Below are positions 30,146 to 63,653 of a DNA stretch of 64,000 nt, one piece after another. The stretch comes from Chitinophaga pinensis (GTDB taxonomy: Bacteria > Bacteroidota > Bacteroidia > B-17B0 > Aurantibacillaceae): contig CAMCZO010000001.1 of the NCBI GenBank assembly GCA_945887955.1, positions 50,472 through 114,471 on the forward strand. The letters run 5' to 3'. A model generated the notes under the pieces. That model saw nothing but the letters and a program-made list of their open reading frames with translations, searched no databases and was not told where the DNA came from. Positions within the stretch are counted from its first letter, which is position 1. Each line of letters opens with the position of its first letter. Position numbers and translations under genes: made by a program.

Positions 30146-31396
30146 TTATGGACTAACGCCTTCTTTTTCTGTTACTTTATCTACTGGGTCAAAATTAAAA
30201 CTTAAAGTTATTCGCCAAGTATTCTGTAAGGGATTTTGTAAACTTGTTGGGATTAAATATGACCCATCAATATTTATAACCTTAAACTTAAACCCTATTC
30301 CCATTGTAAAAAATTGTCGGCTTCCTTTTGTAATTGATTCATGGAAATAACCAGCTCTTACAAAAAAAGTTTTATCGTAGGCATACTCTAATCCTGAGGA
30401 AACATTTATTTCTTTCATTTCCTCCGAAAATCCTCCCGGAGCATCATTAAACGATTGCAAAATAGCTGTAGCAACTCCAACGTTTGGATCTTTTCCTAAA
30501 GCGATTTTTTGTTTTCCTGTAATTGGGTCAATCACAATTTCTTTTTGCCCTGAAGATGTAATGGTGGTTTGGTAAATTGGGGGTGTAGGAACTAATAATT
30601 TATTAAAATCTAAATAAACTCCAAAACTATTATAATCATCAATGTCTGTTTTCAATCCACCGCCTAATCTAATATTCATCGGAATAAAGTTTTGATCATT
30701 TGAATATTTTATTTTAGCCCCAACATTAGTTATAGCTAATCCTAAGGTTGCCACTGCTTTTTTATCTGATAAATTAAATTTTTCACTTTTAAAAAACATA
30801 CTTAAATCTACAGCAAAAGTACTTGCAGACGCCCCAGAACCTCCATTAAATGGCACTTTACTTATGCCGGAATTTATAAATCGAGAAGCTACACCCAATG
30901 CAAAATATTTTGATAACTTTTGAGTAAAAGCAAAATCAAGAGCAAATTCATTCGGTCTAAAATCACTCGTTTTTTGTCCAGAACTATTAGTTAATTCAAT
31001 GTTTCCTAAACTAAAATAACGCAATGATCCTCCAATAGTTTGTTTTGTATTTAATTTAATGTATCCTGCCAAATAAGACATGTTAATGTCCGGAACTAAT
31101 AACCTTAACCAAGGGGTAACTGTAAAGCCAAGCCCAAACTTCTTATCAGAAAAAGCCAATTTACTGCCATTCCAATGTATAGAATTTATATCTGGGTCAG
31201 TGGCTACTCCTACATCGCCCATAGCACCTTGTTTACTATCTGGACTGATCATTAAAAATGGAACAGCAGTAGTAATTGGGTTTATTGTACCCGAAAATCC
31301 ACTTAATTGACCTGAATTAATTGATTGTGAATGCAAAAAATTAAAACTTGATCCTAAAATGATAACTCCAATTACAAAATATCTTTTCATTGACAT
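30146..31396 (-). CDS. porV: Type IX secretion outer membrane protein PorV (LptO)
   Basis: ITTAVPFLMISPDSKQGAMGDVGVATDPDINSIHWNGSKLAF; adjacent to porU. Confidence 0.92.
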   Translation of the reverse strand: MSMKRYFVIGVIILGSSFNFLHSQSINSGQLSGFSGTINPITTAVPFLMISPDSKQGAMGDVGVATDPDINSIHWNGSKLAFSDKKFGLGFTVTPWLRLLVPDINMSYLAGYIKLNTKQTIGGSLRYFSLGNIELTNSSGQKTSDFRPNEFALDFAFTQKLSKYFALGVASRFINSGISKVPFNGGSGASASTFAVDLSMFFKSEKFNLSDKKAVATLGLAITNVGAKIKYSNDQNFIPMNIRLGGGLKTDIDDYNSFGVYLDFNKLLVPTPPIYQTTITSSGQKEIVIDPITGKQKIALGKDPNVGVATAILQSFNDAPGGFSEEMKEINVSSGLEYAYDKTFFVRAGYFHESITKGSRQFFTMGIGFKFKVINIDGSYLIPTSLQNPLQNTWRITLSFNFDPVDKVTEKEGVSP

Positions 31397-31433
31397 CTAA
31401 CTAATAAACATAAGTTTAAAAAAATTATAACGG

Positions 31434-31441
31434 CAAATTTA
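31434..31441 (-). promoter_or_regulatory. Candidate -7 element TAAATTTG between porU and porV
   Basis: TAnnTTTG on minus strand in the short porU-porV gap, 37 nt before porV start. Confidence 0.35.
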
Positions 31442-34400
31442 CTAATTTAGTATCACTAATTTTTCAATTTTCTCGACTTTTTGATTTTCAGAATCTGAAA
31501 TAGATAATTTATATAAATAAACTCCTCGTCCTAACTTATCATTAAAATCATCCTTTCCATCCCATTCTATTCCTTCATTTTTAAACCCCTGACAAGTCAC
31601 TTGTTCTTGAATAGTTTTTACTAACTTTCCTGTAATAGTATATATCTGAATTACCAATTTTAATGGATTGCATGCCTGATTATGCTCAAACATAAATGTG
31701 GTATGGTTGGTAAACGGATTAGGATAATTTAACACATGATCTAAGGCTAGTTTAGCACTTTTTGCAACTACAAAATCAGTATAAACTGTATTAGAATTAT
31801 TCTGAATATCCCATACTTTTAAACTTAGCCGATGGTTGCCTTCACTTAAATCTGAAAATGGATATTTTACTCTTCCTATTTGATATGAATTTAAATTAGC
31901 TTCATAGTAGTCGTTTAATATAATTGGCTTATTTCCAGCCTCATCTAATACCAATGATAAATCATGCCCAATTCCACTTCCTAATGTATTTACGCCACTC
32001 GAATCAGAAATTTCTGCATATAAAATCGGTTTTTCATTAGTAATACTCCCATTTATAAAGCTTTTATCATTTAAATATAAATTCACTTTTGGCCCCTCTG
32101 TATCAATCACAATGTTCTTAGAATCTCCTCCAACCACAACTTTATTATAATATCCACTTGCATCAATTAATCCATTGGTGGCATAGTAACTAATTCTTCC
32201 TGGTCCAGTAGCAAAACTAATATCCTTAGGTACTAAAAATGTAAAACTAAATTCTCCATTAACTACTTGAGATTTTCCACGATATAAAATGTTTTTTTGC
32301 AATTTAAATTTGAATGGATTGCCTATCACACTATCATACGATGATGGATTATTTAATAAACAAATTACATTTTGTTCCTTATCAAAAACAGTTGAATAAA
32401 TTATCCCGTTAAAATTATTTATTTTTATACCAGCTGTATCCGAAATATATCCTGAAAAAGTGACTTTTTCTAATGCCGACAAGGTATCTGAACTACTATT
32501 GCTAACAAGAACTTGATTTATTTTTGAAGTAATTACTTTTTGTTCTGGATATGCTAAAGGCATAGCCGGGTCGCCCAGTAAATGAAAATTAGCGTATTGA
32601 ACATTTTGAGCTAAATCATTTTTAGTCTGCTTAACCACATCTCCCATAGTTGGATATTTTCCCTTAGCTGTTTTTTTAAATAATTTATCTAATACTTTTT
32701 TATTTAAATTTTCGTTAAAATTTGAATAAGCAACTCTACAAGTTGTTAATAGCGCAATTGCACCACCATTTGGATTTAATAAACATAATTCTCCAGCAGA
32801 TGTCCTTGCAGGATCATCATATCGACTAAATTCACAAGTAGCTGTAATAAATAATGGCAACTTATTAAAATTATCAAAAGCATTAATAGTTGTCAAATCT
32901 AAAATCCTTTCTTCTGTCAATCCTACTTCTCCTCCATGACCTGTGTAATTAAAAATCAAAACTCCTTTTTTTATTCGTTTAACTAAATCTTGAGCCGCAT
33001 CAGGATATCGATATCCTCCAGGAGTACTATATCTTTGATAAGAATCTAAATTTATTTGGTCCGAATTATAATTAGTTGCCGATTGTTTAACTTGCATCGC
33101 TAATCCATTTGAACTTATCATATGAGTAGATTGATCTCCGTCATCGGCTAAAAACAACAAATTATTTCTCCAATCTCCCATCGGACTGTCTCCTGATATA
33201 TTACAATTTTGAGAATTGTTTGAGTTTATTTGAAAATTTAAATCTTTCTTATAATAATTTTCTATTTTTTGAATTACAGCGTTTACCTCATTGACTGTTC
33301 GGCAAGGGAATCTTCCTACCCCAATATCTATTGCACCATATCCTTCAGCATTTTCTCCTTCCAAATTATCCATTAAACCATAAAAATCATCAGTTGCTGT
33401 GCTTTGAGTAGAAGAAAGTGAATTTATAGATTGATAAGTTGGCACGAAATTACTATTATTTAGTAACCCTCGCGACCGATTATTATAAGATCCATCACCT
33501 ATTAAAAGTAAATACTTTACCTTTTTATCATCAGTAGAATTTCTAGAATATAACATCCTAACAAAATCTCTAATAGCAGAAACATCTTGCCTGCCACTAC
33601 TAAATTCATTATATATTTGATCTGTTGTGGCAACGGCAAAGGTTAAACCTTCCTTTTGCTGATGCAATAAAGCAATTCGCTTAGCTTGATTTAAAAATAA
33701 TGGATGAGCTACAACCACATAATCCGCTTGCTGTATAGCATGCAAATTCTGATTTGAAATTTTTGAAACAAAAACTGCCGAAAAATAATCGTTAGCTGGA
33801 GCAACGCAAAATTCGTTAAGAGTATCGGCCATTGCTCTAAAAGAAATTAAATTTCCATCCGTATTGTAAGGTTGAATAATTGGCTTTAATGGATCGCTCA
33901 CATTCCACAATTGAATTGCATTTCCACTTGTATTAGTTAAAAAATAATCGCAAACTTTATTTATTCCAATGCTTCTAGTATCTCTAAAATTAAACTGCTT
34001 GGCATTAATAATTAATTTTCTTCTGGCATTTATTGTCAATCTGTCTAACCAACCTATTCCTTTGTATGTTATTTTACTTACTGTTAAATTTATATTATCA
34101 CTTCTAGGATTTAATCCCTTTTTATATTTTAAGGTTTGTGATGCATGATCAGCCAAATAATATGCTGTGTTAATTGCCGAGGTTGTTAAATTGAAATTGA
34201 CCCCACCTCCACTAACTATAAATTGCGTAGTATCATTATTTAATCCTGCAATAGAAGCTTCAATATAATTTGTATCGTTGACAACAAAATCTCCATCATT
34301 CCAATTAAATGTGTAGGAATTAACTATATCAAAAAATTCGCCTAACCAATATCTTCCACTCTTAGCCAAATTAACTAAATCTAATTCATGGGTATTGAAA

Positions 34401-35356
34401 TAATCATAACTATTCGAAATAACATTAGATGGTGTTGTTACTGATGACTGAGTATTTGCCCTCTTTCTAGATGATACCTCCGAATTTAAAGTGATGAAAT
34501 AGAAGCTAGTGTCGCTATATAAATTTTTAATTGGTTTAAACTTTAATCCTGTTACTGAATTGTTTTTTTTCCAATCGTTCGGTCCTGTGGCATAAAACAA
34601 AACATAATCAGAATTATCAAATTTACCATCATCTTCACCAAAAACTAAAATAGAATTTTCAATCAAATCATCCTGTCTAAAAGCAGCATTTTTTTCGGGC
34701 AACATTTTACCTCCATTGCCATAAATTCTAATTTTTTTTGGGTCTAAATTAGTTGTGTTGATCCCAATATTAGTTAGAAAATCTTTATTAATTTTATAAA
34801 TGCCAGTTTGTGTTACTGCAATTTTATACCAGTCACCATTTGACAAAACAGATGAGTTTGAAAAGGTTGCTCCATTTTTGTTTAATGATAAATTTGGAAC
34901 AGATTGCCATTGTATTTCATAATCAATTAGTTCTTCTACCTGGCCAGAGCTATTCAATCTAAGAGGATAAAGTAAAAATTGATTTAAATTTTCTAACCTT
35001 GCGAAACCTGGTTTTGAAATAAATTCAAAATTAGACGTTAAGTACGTTCCCAAAACTTTTTTTAAACTTGATGAAGTAGCCCCAGAAAGTAGTATGGTTT
35101 TTTTTAAAATCAATTTAGGAATTAAATTTTCATTCAAGTTTGATGGCTTTGAAACAATAAAAAATGGGAAATTATTTCTCAATACGTCATAACTTGCATT
35201 TTTCATCTGAAATTTAAGAAAAACCGTATCGGTTAAGTCTATTTTAATTATATTGGATTTGAACTCAGTTGAAAAATTTGATTGAGAATTGAGCTTACCA
35301 ATATATAATAATAAAAACCCTAAAAAAAAATTAGAAAAATTCTTAAAAAACAGCAT
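31442..35356 (-). CDS. porU: Type IX secretion system sortase PorU (C25-family peptidase)
   Basis: Catalytic FNYTGHGGEVGLTEERIL and LFITATCEFSRYDDP; C-terminal T9SS CTD (PNPF...GVYLYKLSIS...KLVILN); ATG 35356 gives a signal peptide. Confidence 0.93.
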   Translation of the reverse strand: MLFFKNFSNFFLGFLLLYIGKLNSQSNFSTEFKSNIIKIDLTDTVFLKFQMKNASYDVLRNNFPFFIVSKPSNLNENLIPKLILKKTILLSGATSSSLKKVLGTYLTSNFEFISKPGFARLENLNQFLLYPLRLNSSGQVEELIDYEIQWQSVPNLSLNKNGATFSNSSVLSNGDWYKIAVTQTGIYKINKDFLTNIGINTTNLDPKKIRIYGNGGKMLPEKNAAFRQDDLIENSILVFGEDDGKFDNSDYVLFYATGPNDWKKNNSVTGLKFKPIKNLYSDTSFYFITLNSEVSSRKRANTQSSVTTPSNVISNSYDYFNTHELDLVNLAKSGRYWLGEFFDIVNSYTFNWNDGDFVVNDTNYIEASIAGLNNDTTQFIVSGGGVNFNLTTSAINTAYYLADHASQTLKYKKGLNPRSDNINLTVSKITYKGIGWLDRLTINARRKLIINAKQFNFRDTRSIGINKVCDYFLTNTSGNAIQLWNVSDPLKPIIQPYNTDGNLISFRAMADTLNEFCVAPANDYFSAVFVSKISNQNLHAIQQADYVVVAHPLFLNQAKRIALLHQQKEGLTFAVATTDQIYNEFSSGRQDVSAIRDFVRMLYSRNSTDDKKVKYLLLIGDGSYNNRSRGLLNNSNFVPTYQSINSLSSTQSTATDDFYGLMDNLEGENAEGYGAIDIGVGRFPCRTVNEVNAVIQKIENYYKKDLNFQINSNNSQNCNISGDSPMGDWRNNLLFLADDGDQSTHMISSNGLAMQVKQSATNYNSDQINLDSYQRYSTPGGYRYPDAAQDLVKRIKKGVLIFNYTGHGGEVGLTEERILDLTTINAFDNFNKLPLFITATCEFSRYDDPARTSAGELCLLNPNGGAIALLTTCRVAYSNFNENLNKKVLDKLFKKTAKGKYPTMGDVVKQTKNDLAQNVQYANFHLLGDPAMPLAYPEQKVITSKINQVLVSNSSSDTLSALEKVTFSGYISDTAGIKINNFNGIIYSTVFDKEQNVICLLNNPSSYDSVIGNPFKFKLQKNILYRGKSQVVNGEFSFTFLVPKDISFATGPGRISYYATNGLIDASGYYNKVVVGGDSKNIVIDTEGPKVNLYLNDKSFINGSITNEKPILYAEISDSSGVNTLGSGIGHDLSLVLDEAGNKPIILNDYYEANLNSYQIGRVKYPFSDLSEGNHRLSLKVWDIQNNSNTVYTDFVVAKSAKLALDHVLNYPNPFTNHTTFMFEHNQACNPLKLVIQIYTITGKLVKTIQEQVTCQGFKNEGIEWDGKDDFNDKLGRGVYLYKLSISDSENQKVEKIEKLVILN

Positions 35357-35423
35357 ACAAACTTTACAAATAATAAAAACTAACAACAAAGTAACGATTT
35401 GTATCTTAATTTATTGTTATTTC

Positions 35424-53402: not shown

Positions 53403-53819
53403 TTAATTGCTATTTGATGGAATGTTTAAACGAATAGCTGAAGCAATTTGTTCGAATTCTTGATGAGTTAATTTTAATTTTTCTTTAGAAAAATCAGCGT
53501 CACTTGTGGTGTTTATCGGAATTAAATGGACGTGAGCATGAGGTACTTCTAAACCTATAACATGCATTGATATTCGCTTACAGGTAACTGTTTTTTTTAT
53601 TGCAAGAGCCACTTCTCTAGAAAATTTCATTAAACCAAGATATTCTTCAGATTCTAAATCAAAAATATAATCAACTTCTTTTTTGGGAATCACTAATACG
53701 TGTCCTTTTTTTAAAGGAAATACATCTAAAAAGGCTAAATAATTTTTGTTCTCTGCTATTTTATAACTTGGTATTTGATTAGATGCAATTTTTGAAAAAA
53801 TGCTTGACATAATTATCAA
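53403..53819 (-). CDS. HIT family protein
   Basis: GLEVPHAHVHLIPI histidine triad. Confidence 0.94.
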   Translation of the reverse strand: MIIMSSIFSKIASNQIPSYKIAENKNYLAFLDVFPLKKGHVLVIPKKEVDYIFDLESEEYLGLMKFSREVALAIKKTVTCKRISMHVIGLEVPHAHVHLIPINTTSDADFSKEKLKLTHQEFEQIASAIRLNIPSNSN

Positions 53820-54292
53820 ATAGTTATTTCAATAACTTCAAAAGTAACTTTTCCAACAGGAACTATTACATCCACCTTGTCGGAGACTTTTTTTCCAAGT
53901 AATGCTCTGCCAATTGGAGAATCGACTGATATTTTACCATTTTTTAATTCGGCTTCATTTTCAGCAACTATGGTATATTTCATGATGGCTCCGTTATTTA
54001 AATTTTTAATTTTTACCGTAGTTAAAATACTGACTTTACTTAAATCAATTTTTGATTCATCAACTATTCTTGCGTTAGCAATAACCACTTCTAATTTAGC
54101 GATACGAAATTCTAATAATGCTTGCGCTTCTCTAGCAGCATCGTATTCGGCATTTTCACTTAAATCACCCTTATCTCTTGCGTCTACAATTGCCTGAGTA
54201 GCTGCTTTACGTTCTTTAGTTCTTAAAAGATGTAATTCATCTTTTAATTTTTGTAAGCCTTCTTCAGTGTAATAACCAATTTGTTGTGCCAT
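53816..54292 (-). CDS. greA: Transcription elongation factor GreA
   Basis: YYTEEGLQKLKDELHLLR, DKGDLSENAEYDAAREAQ, SPIGRALLGKKVSD. Confidence 0.96.
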   Translation of the reverse strand: MAQQIGYYTEEGLQKLKDELHLLRTKERKAATQAIVDARDKGDLSENAEYDAAREAQALLEFRIAKLEVVIANARIVDESKIDLSKVSILTTVKIKNLNNGAIMKYTIVAENEAELKNGKISVDSPIGRALLGKKVSDKVDVIVPVGKVTFEVIEITI

Positions 54293-54318
54293 ATTTGCTT
54301 AAAATTTAAAAAAAAGAA

Positions 54319-54336
54319 TCCCGAAAAAAATCGGGA
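54319..54336 (-). terminator. Intrinsic terminator downstream of PorV-family gene
   Basis: TCCCGA-TTTTTT-TCGGGA stem followed by T-run on minus strand. Confidence 0.75.
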
Positions 54337-54365
54337 CACATTCTGTAAAACAAAAATAAAACTAT

Positions 54366-55436
54366 TTATAGATTTAATCTAAATCCAAATGTATGAGAAC
54401 CTCCAAAAGGATTTGTTAATCTATAAGAATAATCAAAACCAAAAGTTGATTTTTTTTCATTTATAGGAACTTCAAAAGTTGCTCCTAATGCTGGTCCTGT
54501 AAAAGCCGTTCTTCTTGTTTCTTGATTCATGATATCTTTTTCAAAATAATATCCTGCTCTAATCATTAACATTTCTCTCCATGCATATTCTATACCAGAT
54601 AAAAAATTATCATAGGTAAAAGAATTAGAAGTATAAGTACCATTTAGTGAGATTCTGTTTTGTTTGGAAACGCCAGAACTATCTTTAGTTAAATAAAAAT
54701 CGTAAGACCCACCAATATTAACTAGGGCAGGCAATTCAAAAGAACCCGAACGATTATTTACAGTAAGTTCATAACTATTACTAATAGAAGTGATGTTAGC
54801 TTGTCTGCTTAAACCATCTCCAACATAACTCATTTTTGGGCCCCAATTTTTTAAAGAAATTCCAAAATGAATTTGATCATATTTTCCAGTATGATATTGA
54901 ATTCCTGCATCGATTCCTAATCCTCTGGCTGAAGCGTTTGGAATTTGTTCGCTAATTATTTTAAAATTAATACCCCCATAAATATTATCAGAAAATATTT
55001 TCGCATAAGAAAGATTAATATTATAAAAAGTTGGATTATATGATCCTAAGCCACCCTCAGGCTGCTCTTCGGTGGTAATATCGATTTTACCAGCATTAAT
55101 AGAAGTTACACCAAATCCTATTGTACCAGTTTCTCCAATACCCTGAGTTAAACCAAAACTATTAATAAAAATATCAGTGCCTTGTAACCAATTAGATCGG
55201 TTAAATAATACTTCTGTTTTACGAGTATAAGCCGTACCAGCAACATTTAAAAATTGAGCTTCTAATCCTCTAACCTTTGCAGAATTTGAACCAACCATTC
55301 CCGAATTGCGAGAATAAGGATTAATTAACAACTGACTTGCTCCGGCTTGACCAATTCGTTCAGGATTTCCTGAATAGCAATACAATGAGAAAGTCAATGC
55401 TGCCATGAGGCCAAAATATTTTAAATTTTTAATCAT
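54366..55436 (-). CDS. PorV/PorQ family outer membrane protein (second copy in window)
   Basis: GASQLLINPYSRNSGMVGSNSAKVRGLEAQFLNVAGTAYTRKTEVLFNRSNWL. Confidence 0.85.
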   Translation of the reverse strand: MIKNLKYFGLMAALTFSLYCYSGNPERIGQAGASQLLINPYSRNSGMVGSNSAKVRGLEAQFLNVAGTAYTRKTEVLFNRSNWLQGTDIFINSFGLTQGIGETGTIGFGVTSINAGKIDITTEEQPEGGLGSYNPTFYNINLSYAKIFSDNIYGGINFKIISEQIPNASARGLGIDAGIQYHTGKYDQIHFGISLKNWGPKMSYVGDGLSRQANITSISNSYELTVNNRSGSFELPALVNIGGSYDFYLTKDSSGVSKQNRISLNGTYTSNSFTYDNFLSGIEYAWREMLMIRAGYYFEKDIMNQETRRTAFTGPALGATFEVPINEKKSTFGFDYSYRLTNPFGGSHTFGFRLNL

Positions 55437-55454
55437 CTTATTTTTTTTTATTGA

Positions 55455-58400
55455 CTAATAGCTTTGAACATCTAGTGGACGCATTATACCGAACCATTTT
55501 ACAATCTTCTCGCCTAATCCTTCTGCATCGATATAAAAAATATACAAACCACTTGCAACAGAAATATTATTTTGATTTTTTAAGTCCCAATCCGTATAAC
55601 TAATCTGTTTTGTTTGTTTAATATCTGATCCAGTTCCGTTAGAACCAGTATAAATATCTTCCTGACCACTAACGTCTCTTTTAATTGTTCGAATCAAAGT
55701 TCCATTCATTGAAAATATTTTGATAGTGCATTTGTTTGGTAAATTTGTAATTCTAACTCGATTATCTACCCTACCTGTTTCGTATGCTGATGAACCATAA
55801 TATGGATTTGGAACAACACGAATTAAGTCTAAGGCATTTTTAGCGGTTTCTGAATCATTAGTTTTAGTAGCAATATCACTTGTATTAAATGAGTACAAAG
55901 GGAAATTATTGTTCTCTGGGCTTGCTTTAATATTTGTTGTAAGCAAAGAAGGGTTATTTACACTAATTAATTTATTTAAAGTAGCGTATTGCTGATTTCC
56001 TGATTGTATTTTAGCAATCCCTGAAAATCCATATCTATATGGCTTAGCAACATTTATTTGAAATCTCACATCCGAAGGCATATTATCTGGGCTAAGAAAG
56101 TTATAACCTGATTTAGGTATTGGAATAGATACCCACATGATATCACGTTCTAAAGCGCTAAAAGGAGCTAAATTATTACCACTCATATCAGTAGAAAAAA
56201 CAGAGGGCTTAAAATAGTTTTGTAGAATCTCAATTATTCTTTTGCCATAATCGTATCTTCCTGAATAAGCCTCTTTTCCTGCTAAATCAGTTTCCCATTC
56301 AAAAATAGTTCCTGGGGTTAAATTAAATTTTGAATTAGTAGTATTACCTCCAAAAACATAAACAAAATGTTTACCACCCATTGCATATTGATAAGGACTA
56401 TTCATACTTGATGTTGGATTCCAAATCATATCATCTCCATTATTTTCTTTTTGGAAGCTATCTTCACCAAAAGCCATATTTAATCGTTCACCAGTTTCGA
56501 TATTTATGGCGTAGCCTGGAAACCATCCCATTCCTGAAGCGCTAATATAATCTGCATCATTAGGATCGTCGGTTACAATACCATTACCAATTTTACCATT
56601 TTTATCAACAGAAGCATGATTTCTTGGGCCAAAGAAAAATGCATTTCCTTGACTTAATTGTGACTTTTCTTGCATTTCTAGAACTGCACATCGAGTCCAT
56701 TTTGATTGATCTTTGGTAAATACAATCAAAGAGCTACTCATTTTTCTTAAATCTGTATTACCATTATTAGGTGAAGAAGATGTCATTTGTTGTTTATTAT
56801 ACTTTTCTACAAACCTCGGGTCTTCTTTCCACGAATTTCCATTAAAACCTGGTCCACAGAAAATTCTTGCAGAAGAAATACGATAATAAGAGGCGCATAA
56901 AGGATAAGGTGCCCAAGTCCCTTTTAAAATTTTACCAAATTGTTTTTGTGGATCATAAAAAGCAAAGTCTGAACCTGTTTTCTTATAATATGCATCTTCA
57001 AAACCAGCAGTTTTATTAGTACCTGAAAGTATCCAATTAAAAGGATTTTCTCCATCTTGATCTTCTAAAGAACCTAACCAATTGTTGGTGCCATTAACAT
57101 AAGAAATATTTGCGCCAATAAAAGAACCTGGATTTGGGCCTAAATAAGAAGCATCTTTTGTTGTGAAATCTGAAAATTTATTAACATCCTCTCCTGGATC
57201 TGCGACCTGATTTATTTTAATAGAGAAACCTAATTCAGGAAAATAGAATTCGTTGCCAACATTAATTGCTTGAAATAAAGTGTCTTTATAACTAGCATTA
57301 GTAATAATTGTTGATGGAGTGGGCTCATTTGGATGATATATTTTTTTAGAAATAATATCTTTTAATTCCCAACTAGTATTGTTAGCATTTATAGTGGCAA
57401 GAGTTCCAGTATAAGTTTTGGAAGCAAGCGATGATGATTGTGCTGATTGTAGCATTAAATTTATGGAATCTGCTGGAGTTTTTGCAACAAAAGGAACCTG
57501 TCCTTTTTTATCAATAGAATTCTGAATAAATCTAAATTCAAACTTCGAATCTACTAAATTTAAGGGGTCAACCACTTTTATATTTATAGGACCCTGTCCA
57601 TATTCATATTCAATATTTTCAACAAATGAATTAGGCGAATTTAAAATTGCAAGTTCTGATTCGTTAGTTAAGGTCATGAGATTTCCGCCATTTCCTTGAC
57701 CTTCTTTTCTGGTGATTTTTGGGCCAAATCCATAAACTGACTGGGCAATTGTGCCCCCTTTTTCGGCGTCTATATTGTGAGGAATTCCTGCAGCGCGTTT
57801 TAATTTACGCCCCTCTAAATAAGGTTTCTTCTGCCCCATTAAATTTGCTGAAGAACTAATTGAAACAGGAACATCGGGCGCATAAGTTAAATACTCATTG
57901 TGAGCATAGGCAACCGTAACAAAATAATAGGTTTTATTATTTACTAATTTTCGATTTTCTAAAGTAGAAAAAGCATCATCGGTAATTTTAAATGTTGATG
58001 AAATTCCTTTATTAGCTCCATCTACTTTTACCTTTGGCACATATCCACCAACATTATTATCAATTTCATAATTCACTAATCTACTATAGTTATTTGCCAC
58101 ATCGCATTGAAAAATTGGAATTGCTTTTGTTCTGTCGCTTAAATCTGTAGAAGTTACTCCATCATTTTTAACTTGATAAACAATATACCCTTCAAATCTA
58201 TAATTCTTATCCGGATTACTTAAAGCTGTTATGGTAGAAGTTGGGTCAGATACAATTGAAATATCTTCTTCTTCATAATCATTATTATATCTTTTAAAAT
58301 TATTTGATTTACCTTTTTCGTTTGTTAGATAAAAAATTAATTCGTTATTCATTTCTTGAATAGTCAAATTAGGTGCTTCGGGACCATCTAATAATTTAAA

Positions 58401-59927
58401 GCAATTATCAAATAATGCTTGTGCTTTATCATCAGCACTAAACAATAATTCTAATGATTGCATATTGCCGCCTTTACTTGGACTTTGAGCCCATGGCATT
58501 CCAAAAGTAATTTCATTAACAGCTCCTGGCTTTAAAGTAAAAGGGCCAGCAGATTGTAAGAAACGACGATCGCCAGGTAAATTACCAGATGCTTTTTCTG
58601 TCCAGCCAGTGTTTTTTACAGGATTACCATCGTAAACATAAGTTGCCGGAGAGGTTCCGCCATATGCATTGCCACCGATAGTAAAATTAGAGCCGTCTTT
58701 CCAAAAACCAGTCATGTAATTGTAATAATGAATGGCTATATCTGGATTTGTAGTTTGAGGAGGAAAAGCTCCAATATTATTATTATAATAAGTAAACCTC
58801 GACATTTGAATAGTTTCTCCTGCCTCATCAGTAATTCCATCTTGATCATTATCAATTTTGTCTCCAATATCAGCTAAAGGTCCTTTAAAGAAATCGCAAC
58901 CTAAAGATGGAGGATAATCTTGATAGCCATTAACTCCACTAGCGGATTCGTCAAATGGATCTGCGTTGTAGATATAACCTAAGCCTCTTTTTACGTCACA
59001 ACCAACATAGTCATCTAAATAATATCCCAAATCAGCATCGTTCCAAATAGTAAAGTATGTTGAGTTTAATTGAAAAGAAGAGCGATTAAACACCTCGTAA
59101 CTATAAAAGGTCATATTATTTATCTCATCGTTTGTTTTAAAACCAAAAGCTTGAGCTCTAACCTCAACACCAATTGGTACACCTTGAGTTTCGGTATGAA
59201 TACCCCCTTTATCATTAAAAATCCAAAACAAAGTATTATCTCCAAATAATTTAGTTTTACAAAATCCTAATTCATTTTTTTCTGCTAAATTTTGTATATC
59301 ATAGGCTGGATAATCTCCTCCGGTTGGATCATATAATCCATCGCTATTTACATCTATAAAAGGAGCAATTCTTCGACCTTGTTGTTTACTTACATCGCCA
59401 TTACCTGGCCAATTTAATATTCCTGGAGTAATTGGGCCGCCGGCAACAAAATTATCTACTTCATTTCTTGAAACGGTATAAACTTGATCGTACTTTGAAC
59501 ATTCAGTCGGATCAGCTGAAGCATTTATGGTATCTAATGGGCCAGGCCAAAAATCAATTCCATTTTGGCGGTAAGTCATTGCGGCTACTTTTAATTGTCC
59601 ACCTGCATCTAAACCACCTAACCAAATAGATCCAGCAAAACTTGAAGATATTCCATTATTTCTATTTTGAACTGCAGGAATGTAGTAATAAGCATTAGTA
59701 TTTCCATCTCTATCCCACCACATATCTCCGCCTGTAAATATAATTGTTCTTACATTATTAACCCAAAATTCTTTACTCGCTTTAGGAGCGGCACAATTAG
59801 CTAATACTCTTTGATTTATTTTTATTGAAGAGCTTTCTTCGCCCGGAGCCTTTTCTTTAGCTAATAAGGATATGCTTGTAAATGATACTAATAATATTAT
59901 AACTTTTTTCATACTAATTTTCTTCAT
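55455..59927 (-). CDS. Large secreted protein with T9SS C-terminal sorting domain
   Basis: Signal peptide; C-terminal VVPNPYYGSSAYETGRVDNRVRITNLPNKCTIKIFSMNGTLIRTIKRD...GLYIFYIDA; IDNDQDGITDEAGE Ca-loop-like motif. Confidence 0.88.
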   Translation of the reverse strand: MKKISMKKVIILLVSFTSISLLAKEKAPGEESSSIKINQRVLANCAAPKASKEFWVNNVRTIIFTGGDMWWDRDGNTNAYYYIPAVQNRNNGISSSFAGSIWLGGLDAGGQLKVAAMTYRQNGIDFWPGPLDTINASADPTECSKYDQVYTVSRNEVDNFVAGGPITPGILNWPGNGDVSKQQGRRIAPFIDVNSDGLYDPTGGDYPAYDIQNLAEKNELGFCKTKLFGDNTLFWIFNDKGGIHTETQGVPIGVEVRAQAFGFKTNDEINNMTFYSYEVFNRSSFQLNSTYFTIWNDADLGYYLDDYVGCDVKRGLGYIYNADPFDESASGVNGYQDYPPSLGCDFFKGPLADIGDKIDNDQDGITDEAGETIQMSRFTYYNNNIGAFPPQTTNPDIAIHYYNYMTGFWKDGSNFTIGGNAYGGTSPATYVYDGNPVKNTGWTEKASGNLPGDRRFLQSAGPFTLKPGAVNEITFGMPWAQSPSKGGNMQSLELLFSADDKAQALFDNCFKLLDGPEAPNLTIQEMNNELIFYLTNEKGKSNNFKRYNNDYEEEDISIVSDPTSTITALSNPDKNYRFEGYIVYQVKNDGVTSTDLSDRTKAIPIFQCDVANNYSRLVNYEIDNNVGGYVPKVKVDGANKGISSTFKITDDAFSTLENRKLVNNKTYYFVTVAYAHNEYLTYAPDVPVSISSSANLMGQKKPYLEGRKLKRAAGIPHNIDAEKGGTIAQSVYGFGPKITRKEGQGNGGNLMTLTNESELAILNSPNSFVENIEYEYGQGPINIKVVDPLNLVDSKFEFRFIQNSIDKKGQVPFVAKTPADSINLMLQSAQSSSLASKTYTGTLATINANNTSWELKDIISKKIYHPNEPTPSTIITNASYKDTLFQAINVGNEFYFPELGFSIKINQVADPGEDVNKFSDFTTKDASYLGPNPGSFIGANISYVNGTNNWLGSLEDQDGENPFNWILSGTNKTAGFEDAYYKKTGSDFAFYDPQKQFGKILKGTWAPYPLCASYYRISSARIFCGPGFNGNSWKEDPRFVEKYNKQQMTSSSPNNGNTDLRKMSSSLIVFTKDQSKWTRCAVLEMQEKSQLSQGNAFFFGPRNHASVDKNGKIGNGIVTDDPNDADYISASGMGWFPGYAINIETGERLNMAFGEDSFQKENNGDDMIWNPTSSMNSPYQYAMGGKHFVYVFGGNTTNSKFNLTPGTIFEWETDLAGKEAYSGRYDYGKRIIEILQNYFKPSVFSTDMSGNNLAPFSALERDIMWVSIPIPKSGYNFLSPDNMPSDVRFQINVAKPYRYGFSGIAKIQSGNQQYATLNKLISVNNPSLLTTNIKASPENNNFPLYSFNTSDIATKTNDSETAKNALDLIRVVPNPYYGSSAYETGRVDNRVRITNLPNKCTIKIFSMNGTLIRTIKRDVSGQEDIYTGSNGTGSDIKQTKQISYTDWDLKNQNNISVASGLYIFYIDAEGLGEKIVKWFGIMRPLDVQSY

Positions 59928-59936
59928 TTCAAAAAA

Positions 59937-62900
59937 TTAAAAACTAAATAATAAGCCCAAACGAATTTGACGAGGCAGACTGTAATTGCCAGGTGCATTC
60001 ATTCGAATTGAATACATATTACTATAAGCAACTGCACTATTAGCTTGAGCCAAGGCAGCTTGAGCTTGTGTTGAACTTAAGTAACCATCATCGTCAGGTG
60101 CACCAGTGTAATTAAATACATTTAATATATTTTGAGTATTAAATAAATTTAAAACCTGGAGGTATATGTTTATGTTAGCTGATTTTTCTCCATCAGGTCC
60201 ATCTTTACCCCAAGTTAAATTAATGTTTTTATCTAAACGTAAATTTGCTCTAAAATTCCAAGGTTTTGACGAGCCGTTTATTTGCCCAACAATACTTGAA
60301 CGTCCGTTTCCGCCTTGTGTAGGGACTGCTGTACTCCATCGAGTATATGGATTACCTGAATTAAGTAAGAATGATAAATTAAAGCCAATATCTTGAAAAA
60401 GACGAATACTTTTATCTGATTTAGTTTTAAATGATGGCCCTTTATAATCTTTTTTATTCCCAAAACGGTAATCATAACTTAATACAAAATTATGACGGGT
60501 ATCAAAATCTAAAGGTTGAAGTATTCTTAAATTAGGTTGGCCTGTTGAAGCTAAATTTGCTCCAGAATTAGCATTAGAACCAGAACCATCAGCAAATTGT
60601 AAAGTGTAATTTAAATTAATTCTAGAGCCGCCTGTTCTTCTAAAATCAAAAATACAAGAAATACCTTTTACAGTTGAAAAATCAATATTATCATACATGA
60701 TATAATTTTTCGGAAAAGCTCCAACAACAACACGTTGATTTATTTGACCTCTTATTTCTTTGTAAAAAGATGTAATAGTTAATGATGCATTTTTACGTTC
60801 ATTTAATACCTGTTGAAAACCTAACTCATAATCAACTGTTCTTTGTGGTTGTTGATTAGGATTTGTAATTAATGGTGTTGATCCCGAAGCGTTCATATAA
60901 TAATATTCTAAAGGCAATAGTTGACTTCCGGTAGGTCGTTGTGATAAAACATCATAGTGCGCAAAAAAATTAGCCACATCAGAAATTGGGAAAGAAAATG
61001 CTAAGCGAGGTTGAGGAATAATTGCTGCAACATAATTTGTAAAAGCAAGTGCTGACATTTTTTTGTCATAATCGGCGTTATCTTTAAAAAGAGGAATTGG
61101 TCTAGCATCAGAAGAAGCAATTAAGTTTGGATCAGAAATTTCATTTCCTTCACTATTGTACCATTTGTCTCCATCTCTATAACCCTTGATTGAAATTGGA
61201 GATTTTCCACCGCTGGGATTTTGAGCAACATAAATAGCTGCGTTTTGCGAAATATTTTTTGGGATATTATCTGTAAATCCTGCTGGTAAATTACCTATAG
61301 AACCCAAATCTCCAACATGAGCTAATTCATGAAGTGCATATTTATCTTTTAACACTTGCTGATTAGCGTCATATCTATCAATACGCAAACCAACATTAAA
61401 CTTAATGTCTTTAAAATCGAAATGATCCATAAGATATATAGAAGAATAAATAGGACGAAACGAACCAATTGGTAAAAGTAATTTACCATTAGAGGAAGTT
61501 TCAGTTAAAAATTTATTAATATCTGTTTTTTCATTTGTTTTAATACCATCATGAGTATAACCATTGTAAGAAACAATATTATTATCACTTGTATTTCCTA
61601 ACAAATCTTCAGCACTAAACATATTTATATTAAATATAGAGGGGTCTAAGGCATCCGTATTAATAAAACCTGTATAGTTTTTATCTAATCCCATTTTTAC
61701 TAAAAGTTTCTCCGAAAATTGAGTTTGTTTATCTTCTTCGTATAAATAATTAAAAGAATAATAAGGAACTAAGCCTGAAAAATCTGGGTTTAATATGGGG
61801 TTCGATTTATCTAGTTGCTCTGTATGTTGATTTACTATTTGCCTCATTCGAGTCCAAAGTGCTGAAGCATTTAACCCATAATTGCTAAAAGTACGTTGAT
61901 CAAATTCTAAACCTACAGTTACAGCATGATCTTTAATATCAGTATTAAAACTAGTTGCTACTCTTACTTGTTCTTGATTAGAGAAAGAATATCCCCCCGG
62001 ATAGGCTCCGAAATTGTTATATAAACTATAAACACTCTGTGGGTTATCGCCATTTCTTAAACCATTATTACCAGCAATATAATCTAAACTAATAAAAGGT
62101 GTTCTTGAATTATTAATCAAATAACTTGTATAAAGAGCTGCATCAGGATTAAGGGTGCCAGGTGTAAATTTTACAGGAAGTTCAGACCTACCAGAATATA
62201 CGTAGGCATTAACGGTTTGTCCGTTAATTAAAAAATCAGGCGAATAATTATAAGTAATTGCATTATCTTGAGCAAAATAACTTCGCTCAAATTTACCCAC
62301 ATAGCCATAATTAAACAAATTATCTTTATGAATTTGGCTTTGATTTTTAGACATGCCATTTTCATAACTCACTAAAAATTTAAAAAACGAATTTGAAATA
62401 AGAGATTGTGATTTTTCTTTGTTTATCTGCGAATTACCGAATTTTTGGGTAATTGATAAATTGCCTCGAATGGTACGGCCAATGTTTTGAGAATTATTTA
62501 CTGAATTAAATATTTGATTACCTCCTTGACCACCAGAATTGTTATCTGAATAATCATAAAAACCTCCCAAAGTAATATTAGTGTTAGAACTTGGTTGAAA
62601 ATCTATTTTGCCATTAATTGAAATTGATCTGGCTATATTATTAGGACGAATAACATTATCATACATATCGTCTTTTGTTACATACTCTGAATTACGAATA
62701 AAACCAGTTCCTGACCTTGATGGTATTAATGGTTTAGCTTTTAATTCTGCAAGTTTATTATCATTTAAAACCCAAATAGGTACGAAAGACGGTGAAGTTT
62801 CTCTGACATAATTTCCTTGCCCTGATAAAAAGAAACCTAATACAGTTCTTCTTGTAGAATCTTTCTTTTTGTATAATGGCCCACCTAAACTATAACCTAA

Positions 62901-63653
62901 AGAATTATAACCATAAGGATCAGTTAATTCGGAAGAAATTACTTCTATTCCACCAAAATATTTAGACTGAGGGCCACGAGTAGATATTGAAATAGCTCCA
63001 GAAGTTAAATCACCATAATTAGCTGGAACACCACCAGTAATCACATTTAATTGCTCTATAGATTGTTGAGGCAAATTAGGATTACCAAAAACTTTTACAC
63101 CATCAACAAAATAGGTTGTTTGTCCTGAACGGCCACCTCTTACATTAAGTGCTTTTCCTTCATCGGCTTGAAAAACTCCAGCTGTAGTTGCGGCAACTGA
63201 ATTAATATCCTTAGTAGCTAAATTTTGGTAATCTTCGCGAGTAACTGTTTGTCCTGATTTTGTATCAGGATCAATTAAGGGGACCTGATAGGTTGAAACT
63301 ATAATTTCTTCTAAGACAACACCATCACCATTTGATAAGCCAAGTGTTATATTAATGGTTTTACCTTCTCCAACTAAAACATCGTTTATTTGCTGCGTTT
63401 GATATCCTACATAAACTCCTTTAACCGTGTATTTACCGGGCGATAATGGTTTAATAACAGCTTCTCCATCCATATTTGTTGTTCCAACACCAACCTGAAC
63501 ACCGTCTTTAAATGCAACCACATTAGCAAAAGGGATAGCCTCTTTTGTGGCCCTATCCTCTAACTTTATTTTAATAGCTCCATTATCGTTTTGTGAAAAC
63601 GATGTTAAACCAATGAAAATTATAAAAATAGCTGCTAAATAAATCTTATTCAT
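59937..63653 (-). CDS. TonB-dependent receptor with carboxypeptidase-like regulatory N-terminal domain
   Basis: IKIKLEDRATKEAIPFANVVAFKDGVQVGVGTTNMDGEAVIKPLSPGKYTVKGVYVGYQT; plug YFVDGVKVFGNPNLPQQSIEQLNVITGGVPANYGDLTSGAISISTRG. Confidence 0.94.
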   Translation of the reverse strand: MNKIYLAAIFIIFIGLTSFSQNDNGAIKIKLEDRATKEAIPFANVVAFKDGVQVGVGTTNMDGEAVIKPLSPGKYTVKGVYVGYQTQQINDVLVGEGKTINITLGLSNGDGVVLEEIIVSTYQVPLIDPDTKSGQTVTREDYQNLATKDINSVAATTAGVFQADEGKALNVRGGRSGQTTYFVDGVKVFGNPNLPQQSIEQLNVITGGVPANYGDLTSGAISISTRGPQSKYFGGIEVISSELTDPYGYNSLGYSLGGPLYKKKDSTRRTVLGFFLSGQGNYVRETSPSFVPIWVLNDNKLAELKAKPLIPSRSGTGFIRNSEYVTKDDMYDNVIRPNNIARSISINGKIDFQPSSNTNITLGGFYDYSDNNSGGQGGNQIFNSVNNSQNIGRTIRGNLSITQKFGNSQINKEKSQSLISNSFFKFLVSYENGMSKNQSQIHKDNLFNYGYVGKFERSYFAQDNAITYNYSPDFLINGQTVNAYVYSGRSELPVKFTPGTLNPDAALYTSYLINNSRTPFISLDYIAGNNGLRNGDNPQSVYSLYNNFGAYPGGYSFSNQEQVRVATSFNTDIKDHAVTVGLEFDQRTFSNYGLNASALWTRMRQIVNQHTEQLDKSNPILNPDFSGLVPYYSFNYLYEEDKQTQFSEKLLVKMGLDKNYTGFINTDALDPSIFNINMFSAEDLLGNTSDNNIVSYNGYTHDGIKTNEKTDINKFLTETSSNGKLLLPIGSFRPIYSSIYLMDHFDFKDIKFNVGLRIDRYDANQQVLKDKYALHELAHVGDLGSIGNLPAGFTDNIPKNISQNAAIYVAQNPSGGKSPISIKGYRDGDKWYNSEGNEISDPNLIASSDARPIPLFKDNADYDKKMSALAFTNYVAAIIPQPRLAFSFPISDVANFFAHYDVLSQRPTGSQLLPLEYYYMNASGSTPLITNPNQQPQRTVDYELGFQQVLNERKNASLTITSFYKEIRGQINQRVVVGAFPKNYIMYDNIDFSTVKGISCIFDFRRTGGSRINLNYTLQFADGSGSNANSGANLASTGQPNLRILQPLDFDTRHNFVLSYDYRFGNKKDYKGPSFKTKSDKSIRLFQDIGFNLSFLLNSGNPYTRWSTAVPTQGGNGRSSIVGQINGSSKPWNFRANLRLDKNINLTWGKDGPDGEKSANINIYLQVLNLFNTQNILNVFNYTGAPDDDGYLSSTQAQAALAQANSAVAYSNMYSIRMNAPGNYSLPRQIRLGLLFSF

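Follow-up and report, generated by a model that had tools for sequence, protein, structure and literature searches.

Three adjoining genes, encoding a TonB-dependent transporter (TBDR), a 1490-residue cargo protein of the T9SS and a PorV-family barrel that we call PV3, are kept in this order across the phylum Bacteroidota, a pattern suggestive of a surface machine that has yet to be named. It appears very probable that they act as one functional unit, and we give about even weight to the whole mechanism developed below, in which the cargo, docked on PV3, would serve the TBDR within one outer-membrane complex. Every element of the set has a known relative (PorZ–PorQ, type B substrates with PorP, and SusCD), and no description of the combination itself was found: searches of the open literature on PorV paralogues, PorV2/PorU2 and cognate carriers, with subscription papers and preprints outside their scope, returned no account of the trio.

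Organization of the locus

The window, i.e., the whole stretch of 64,000 nucleotides that was analysed, belongs to an assembly of 2.5 Mb in 102 contigs that is 93% complete. ORF calling recovered, at the same coordinates, the layout described in a first-pass annotation of this DNA, with the co-directional genes running from TBDR through cargo to PV3 and separated by gaps of 9 and 18 bp (Table 1). That annotation had also placed a terminator after the last gene; a 7-bp stem followed by a T run does lie 3' of PV3, but matches of this kind are not enriched over shuffled sequence (3 found, 6.1 expected), and its role as a terminator, although likely, rests on position and quality rather than on statistics. 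Cargo and PV3 share a reading frame, with one TAG stop and six codons between them (window 55437-55460); since seven relatives have the same shared frame and others lack it, it is probably due to chance.

Table 1. Features of the trio locus and of the genes used for context and comparison (window coordinates).
Feature	Coordinates	Strand	Length	Basis
TBDR, first trio gene	59937..63653	-	1238 aa	ORF and Pfam
T9SS cargo, middle trio gene	55455..59927	-	1490 aa	ORF, alignments, AF2
Cargo CTD (residues ~1366-1490), type A-like beta-strand region	55458..55832	-		matches to the PorZ CTD and to TIGR04183; strands from the co-folding model
Cargo C-terminal tail WFGIMRPLDVQSY after K1477	55458..55496	-	13 residues	alignments, tail-length comparison
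PV3, PorV-family outer-membrane barrel, last trio gene	54366..55436	-	356 aa	ORF, NCBIfam, tree, PDB matches
Terminator-like hairpin and T run 3' of PV3	54318..54337	-		hairpin scan
greA-like gene (context, outside module)	53816..54292	-		sequence inspection, no family search
HIT-family-like gene (context, outside module)	53403..53819	-		sequence inspection
Canonical PorV (comparison, outside module)	30146..31396	-		NF033710
Canonical PorU sortase (comparison, outside module)	31442..35389	-		NF033707

The first gene product is a TonB-dependent transporter with a plug domain ahead of a barrel that is expected from its family. Pfam detects a CarboxypepD_reg domain (PF13620, 1.2e-9) and the TonB plug (PF07715, 2.5e-8; 34.8 bits, over the cut-off of 23.9), and a signal peptide and a TonB-box-like LEEIIVS motif were read by eye. 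Orthologues of this TBDR lie directly upstream of the cargo in other loci. The SusC/RagA model TIGR04056 gave no match at E<=1 for the window protein and 84 of the 368 bits required for one distant trio TBDR, and no solved homologue was found at E<=1e-10.

Conservation of the trio across Bacteroidota

A cargo-based collection scan yielded 42 loci, and almost every one with sufficient length for an assessment shows the order TBDR-cargo-PV3-greA-HIT. Their labels, including those of metagenome-assembled genomes (MAGs), which were taken as given, comprise Bacteroidales (including rumen genomes), Crocinitomicaceae, Hymenobacteraceae, Spirosoma, Sediminibacterium, Fluviicola, Brumimicrobium and others, such that the trio beside greA-HIT recurs in genomes of Bacteroidales, Flavobacteriales, Cytophagales and Chitinophagales type. 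Other classes of the phylum also carry the trio, often in multiple copies; the greA-HIT neighbours are confined to the class Bacteroidia, and the context differs elsewhere.

In a phylum-wide sample of 297 genomes, 152 of which match the cargo profile, the same trio was present in 17 of 20 neighbourhoods. The three exceptions are a locus with no detected PV3 ORF (L086), where a genome search nonetheless places PV3 (G073:C1:487966-488958), one left unresolved by a crude gene caller (L089) and one without an upstream TBDR (L092). PV3 lies on the same strand and 3' of the cargo at 61 of the 68 best cargo places in this sample, several of the others being on different contigs, and cargo plus TBDR stand directly upstream of 67 of 79 non-identical PV3-type genes, a count that includes the cargo-fetched loci. 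Two genomes outside Bacteroidia encode 18 and 21 PorV-family genes, many of them in divergent trio copies. The absence of conserved linkage in other genomes, which the first-pass annotation had named as an outcome that would speak against its proposal, is therefore not what is observed.

Incomplete arrangements also occur. A PV3-like gene directly follows a TBDR, without a cargo, at L172, L177 and L194 (contigs of G272, G066 and G078, respectively), which makes these loci two-gene versions of the module, and a cargo, or a fragment comprising its N-terminal half or CTD only, lacks TBDR and PV3 neighbours at L038:7899-12491, where the cargo stands alone, L045:7485-8396 and L043:7011-9773; two of these latter three loci are in Flavobacteriales MAGs. 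Module decay or domain shuffling are possible origins of such solitary cargos and fragments.

PV3 as a separate PorV-family barrel

PV3 scores 137.9 bits on the PorV/PorQ family model NF033709 (cut-off 90) and falls below each of the specific equivalog models, with 66.9 of 220 bits for PorQ (NF033711, the highest-scoring specific NCBIfam model), 55.9 of 250 for PorV (NF033710) and 45.8 of 325 for PorV2 (NF052325). Its best solved homologue is PorV (3.5e-15), and its model folds as a barrel whose best PDB matches are PorV chains of the T9SS translocon (8gl6_F, 6h3i_F). In an IQ-TREE phylogeny of 81 PorV-family proteins, PV3 (100/100), PorV (100/99), PorQ (100/100) and PorV2 (99/97) form separate clades; a wider clade (99/90), which joins PV3 to PV3-like paralogues that come mostly from paralogous trios, is sister to PorV2 with moderate support (97/91).

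The assembly holds four PorV-family genes. The canonical PorV of the window, which the first-pass annotation had paired with porU, is a true PorV (452 bits on NF033710) directly downstream of PorU (1233 bits on NF033707), PorQ is encoded on contig C34 and PorV2 on contig C43 (446.6 bits on NF052325). As PorV, PorQ and PorV2 are all present separately, PV3 is classed as a fourth PorV-family kind in this genome and not as a spare PorV. An identity of PV3 as PorQ or PorV2 was ruled out, both being encoded elsewhere in the genome and PV3 lying outside both clades. The earlier description of PV3 as a PorV paralogue calls for one correction, in that PV3 represents an ancient subfamily of its own rather than a recent offshoot of PorV.

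Around these other genes, it was observed that PorQ (L048:6-1055) adjoins a SurA-like chaperone gene and that PorV2 (L049:4464-5540), a putative T9SS sorting protein, stands alone between ArfB-like and hemB-like genes. Two further genomes encode a second, divergent PorV that groups with canonical PorV in the tree and lies apart from PorU (L142:4970-6175 in G064; L139:5061-5981 in G158).

The barrel itself allows another account, in which the cargo is an ordinary T9SS substrate that happens to be encoded in an uptake operon, is exported and processed by PorV/PorU, and has no cognate contact with PV3, the latter being a FadL-type channel for a hydrophobic solute alongside the TBDR. The fold matches of PV3 do include FadL channels, and the genome has a full PorV/PorU system together with matches to the type A CTD model at about 102 places. 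The FadL-family NPA motif (PV3 residues ~64-67) is also retained as NPAG in most PV3 proteins from outside Bacteroidia; in nearly all Bacteroidia PV3 it is N[VI]AG instead, a change that counts against this account, and the motif is likewise lost in most Bacteroidia PorV. Gene adjacency also argues against it. When genes were fetched via the PorV family rather than via the cargo and sorted by best model, the cargo was directly upstream of 17 of 27 PV3-type genes (with the TBDR alone in 3 more) and of 0 of 26 PorV, PorQ or PorV2 genes, the order being fixed with PV3 3' of the cargo. Furthermore, PV3 and cargo share one presence-absence pattern within the class Bacteroidia, the PV3-positive and full-length-cargo-positive genomes being identical (8 of ~74 sampled). 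Together with the CTD features described below, these observations make an ordinary cargo unlikely, though it stays the most probable of the alternatives to a dedicated carrier.

The cargo and its CTD

The cargo consists of a signal peptide, a conserved N-terminal half (~45-690), a middle region specific to Bacteroidia (~700-1230) and the C-terminal CTD. Its relatives are full-length in the class Bacteroidia and about 1000-1270 aa long in other classes, where they match the N-terminal half and the CTD. On the cargo, none of the Pfam or NCBIfam models reached its cut-off, no solved homologue was found, and neither a ligand nor a catalytic motif nor a known fold was recognized. An AF2 model of residues 24-700 is confident (pLDDT 84.8, pTM 0.81) and has no global Foldseek match in the PDB; the local matches are weak and confined to carbohydrate-active enzymes, the best being to glycoside hydrolases and phosphorylases, with TM-scores by query length of mostly 0.14-0.25, and no function was assigned from them.

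The T9SS CTD that the first-pass annotation assigned to the cargo was the least secure of its features, as the window protein alone scores 14.5 bits on the type A model TIGR04183, below the cut-off of 23. Two cargos that occupy the same place in distant trios pass this model (31.6 and 28 bits). A search of the whole genome aligned the window CTD with the end of the PorZ model that represents its CTD (E 4.9e-7 for one genome), and the PorZ CTD was also matched by cargos of distant trios at E 5e-9 to 7e-5, their best matches being mostly to that domain. On the strength of the TIGR04183 passes in homologues and the PorZ-CTD match, the CTD of the window cargo is judged to be real though divergent, in a region that resembles the CTDs of PorZ and PorU. 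The cargo as a PorZ was ruled out: it scores 28.6 of 260 bits on NF052228, in the CTD part only and with no PorZ match elsewhere in the protein, and the true PorZ is on contig C79 (520.7 bits). Likewise, the type B model (CHU_C/TIGR04131) gave no match on the cargo, nor did the PorP/SprF model on PV3.

Type A CTDs carry a conserved lysine near the C terminus (PMC10994853), and the corresponding motif-E lysine, K1477, is invariant in the cargo alignment. The length beyond it is what sets the core cargos apart. Exactly 13 residues follow K1477 in nearly every member, and 48 of 59 trio cargos end 30-32 residues beyond GxY. Of 30 ordinary type A proteins drawn from seven of these genomes, 28 end after 21-23; the core cargos thus extend about 9 residues, at a fixed length, beyond ordinary type A CTDs. 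Judged from these alignments, the extended tail is a mark of the core cargo family. Cargos of paralogous trios have CTDs of ordinary length without the tail, which is therefore not required for the general arrangement; in the core family it possibly serves PV3 binding or protection from PorU. An atypical CTD with a fixed extension also fits poorly with a cargo that PorV/PorU would export and process like any other.

The nearness of the CTD to those of PorZ and PorU can be read in another way, namely that the cargo performs envelope housekeeping, handling LPS, a glycan or a similar molecule at the surface as PorZ does in A-LPS delivery, with the TBDR energizing movement and without nutrient uptake. 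A single copy fixed beside greA in Bacteroidia lineages as distant as rumen Bacteroidales and Crocinitomicaceae would suit such a role, as would the likeness of the N-terminal half to regions of carbohydrate-active enzymes; that likeness, however, is weak and local, at a TM-score of 0.25 or less by query length. The cargo has, moreover, been lost from most sampled Bacteroidia genomes with a T9SS, so that it is not essential there, and the divergent multicopy paralogues of other classes suggest varied substrates. We regard a housekeeping role as rather improbable.

Association with the T9SS and co-diversification

Every cargo-positive genome of the 297 gives a strong PorU match (152/152). Because weak cargo matches may be plain CTD matches, stricter thresholds matter here, and the association persists under them (141/141 at E<=1e-10; 69/69 at 1e-40). 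PorU occurs without the cargo in 56 genomes and neither occurs in 100 (Fisher p 1e-38, relatedness ignored). By class totals counted by hand, the cargo is present in about 133 of 142 PorU genomes outside the class Bacteroidia and in 8 of ~55 within it, in four families. PorU and cargo are both absent from the listed genomes of one family (f18), which measure 2.1-2.8 Mb and possibly belong to Chlorobia.

Pairwise distance matrices taken from the PV3, cargo and TBDR trees correlate at 0.954-0.962 over 60 full trios. Linkage and vertical descent alone can yield congruent trees, a caveat that is weakened by the paralogues: among 15 paralogous trios from three genomes, with shuffling within genomes, the correlations are 0.757 for PV3-cargo, 0.897 for PV3-TBDR and 0.917 for cargo-TBDR (each p 0.0005). 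The three genes thus duplicate and diverge together, and the comparison of PorV-paralogue and cargo trees that had been suggested for this locus comes out congruent, including for paralogous trios within one genome.

Two further alternatives bear on this covariation. The first holds that the three outer-membrane genes stay together by operon inertia without joint function, physical linkage alone being enough to make their trees congruent; the order nevertheless persists from class to class, although the greA-HIT surroundings do not, and has survived several duplications of the whole set, and this explanation retains very little probability. The second has the TBDR serve export, so that the giant cargo, or its ligand, would cross or leave the outer membrane with the transporter's help; the TBDR Oar of Myxococcus reportedly takes part in PopC export. 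The TBDR is indeed the most constant partner, with the tightest covariation with the cargo (r 0.96; 0.92 among paralogues), but its plug domain is normal and the cargo, which carries a T9SS CTD and is found in no genome without PorU, already has a dedicated exporter. Such an export role is very improbable.

Proposed mechanism

In the favoured reading, TBDR, cargo and PV3 would assemble into a single outer-membrane complex. The T9SS would export the cargo through its type A-like CTD; rather than being passed to PorU for CTD removal, the cargo would retain this domain and, through it and the family-specific tail, dock on its own PorV-family barrel, PV3. Held at the membrane, it may act as a surface receptor or lid for the adjacent TBDR, with a role in uptake, and the cargo-TBDR pair would parallel SusD on SusC, with the T9SS as the delivery route. 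A SusCD-like capture of ligand by the cargo for the TBDR is suggested by the gene arrangement and by co-diversification.

The docking step is modelled on PorZ, which stays on PorQ, and on type B substrates, which stay on PorP/SprF-type barrels. PorZ keeps its CTD and is held on PorQ, type B genes cluster with those of PorP/SprF carriers, and it has been proposed that cognate PorV-like barrels shield CTDs from cleavage (PMC10202324); PorV carries type A CTDs, and alternative carriers receive type B substrates and anchor them (PMC10994853). The trio fits the scheme of PMC10202324, with a type A-like CTD and an added TonB transporter. For co-folding of CTD and PV3, both genes were taken in one frame across the 18-nt gap with the stop codon read as glutamine; in the resulting model PV3 forms a barrel of ~14 strands and the CTD a beta-sandwich (pTM 0.67; CTD pLDDT mostly 40-78; no error matrix), values at which the model gives no evidence for docking. 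The suggestion in the first-pass annotation of a cargo-dedicated PorV with a receptor is partly supported, linkage, the separate PV3 clade and co-diversification favouring a single module of receptor, cargo and PV3; in that module PV3 would carry or hold the cargo.

A broader interpretation, which we put forward tentatively and hold to be possible rather than probable, is that the trio descends from the ancestor of Bacteroidota as a machine for transport at the outer membrane, one that would join SusCD and plain TBDRs as a third general layout. The transporter would here be fitted with a huge lid or receptor delivered by the T9SS and locked in place by its own PorV-family carrier, bypassing PorU; outside Bacteroidia the machine would have been duplicated into many substrate-specific versions, and within Bacteroidia either fixed as one copy by greA or lost.

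Significance

Should the proposed mechanism be correct, T9SS substrates with type A-like CTDs could have private carriers, the T9SS would populate the surface with stable machines besides sorted or released proteins, and there would be a TonB-coupled system whose surface partner arrives by secretion and not as a lipoprotein. Carrier specificity has been raised as a question in a review of the T9SS (PMC10202324), and the co-diversifying trios offer natural matched and mismatched CTD-carrier pairs with which to study it.

Comparison with known systems

With canonical PorV/PorU the trio shares the fold of its barrel, for which PorV chains of the translocon are the best PDB match; that pair, however, is encoded elsewhere in the window (30146-35389), and PV3 falls outside the PorV clade (100/99). 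PorU2/PorV2 (NF052324, NF052325), a putative T9SS sorting pair, likewise adds a PorV-family protein to the canonical PorV, and PorV2 is the nearest sister clade of PV3, yet the same genome has a separate PorV2 gene (C43).

BamG of the Bacteroidota BAM complex is a 14-strand barrel of the FadL type with a surface protein held on it (PMC12578637), and BAM-complex chains are among the fold matches of PV3. These rank below PorV, the trio has neither BamA nor BamH, and PV3 belongs to the PorV family by sequence. The trio was accordingly rejected as part of the BAM complex, no described subunit (BamG, BamH, BamM, BamP) being a PorV-family/T9SS-CTD pair (PMC12611786, PMC12578637) and PorV being the better fit to PV3.

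Type B substrates with PorP/SprF barrels (SprB/SprF, PG1035) resemble the trio in that the substrate gene clusters with that of its own PorV-like carrier, anchoring being a type B feature (PMC10202324, PMC10994853). They differ in that the cargo CTD is type A-like, with no CHU_C match, and in that PV3 is in the PorV/PorQ family.

The likeness to PorZ-PorQ lies in the pairing of a dedicated PorV-family barrel with a protein that leaves through the T9SS by a type A-like CTD, CTD retention and binding being reported for PorZ (PMC10202324) and presumed for the cargo; trio cargo CTDs match that of PorZ, and PorQ is the best specific model for PV3. PorZ (C79) and PorQ (C34) are, however, separate genes in this genome, the trio adds a TBDR, and PV3 forms another clade.

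SusC-SusD, finally, offers the parallel of a TBDR whose gene adjoins that of a large surface-exposed partner and which is multicopy in some genomes. In the trio, this partner is a T9SS-CTD protein without a SusD match rather than a SusD lipoprotein, and a PorV-family barrel joins the pair.
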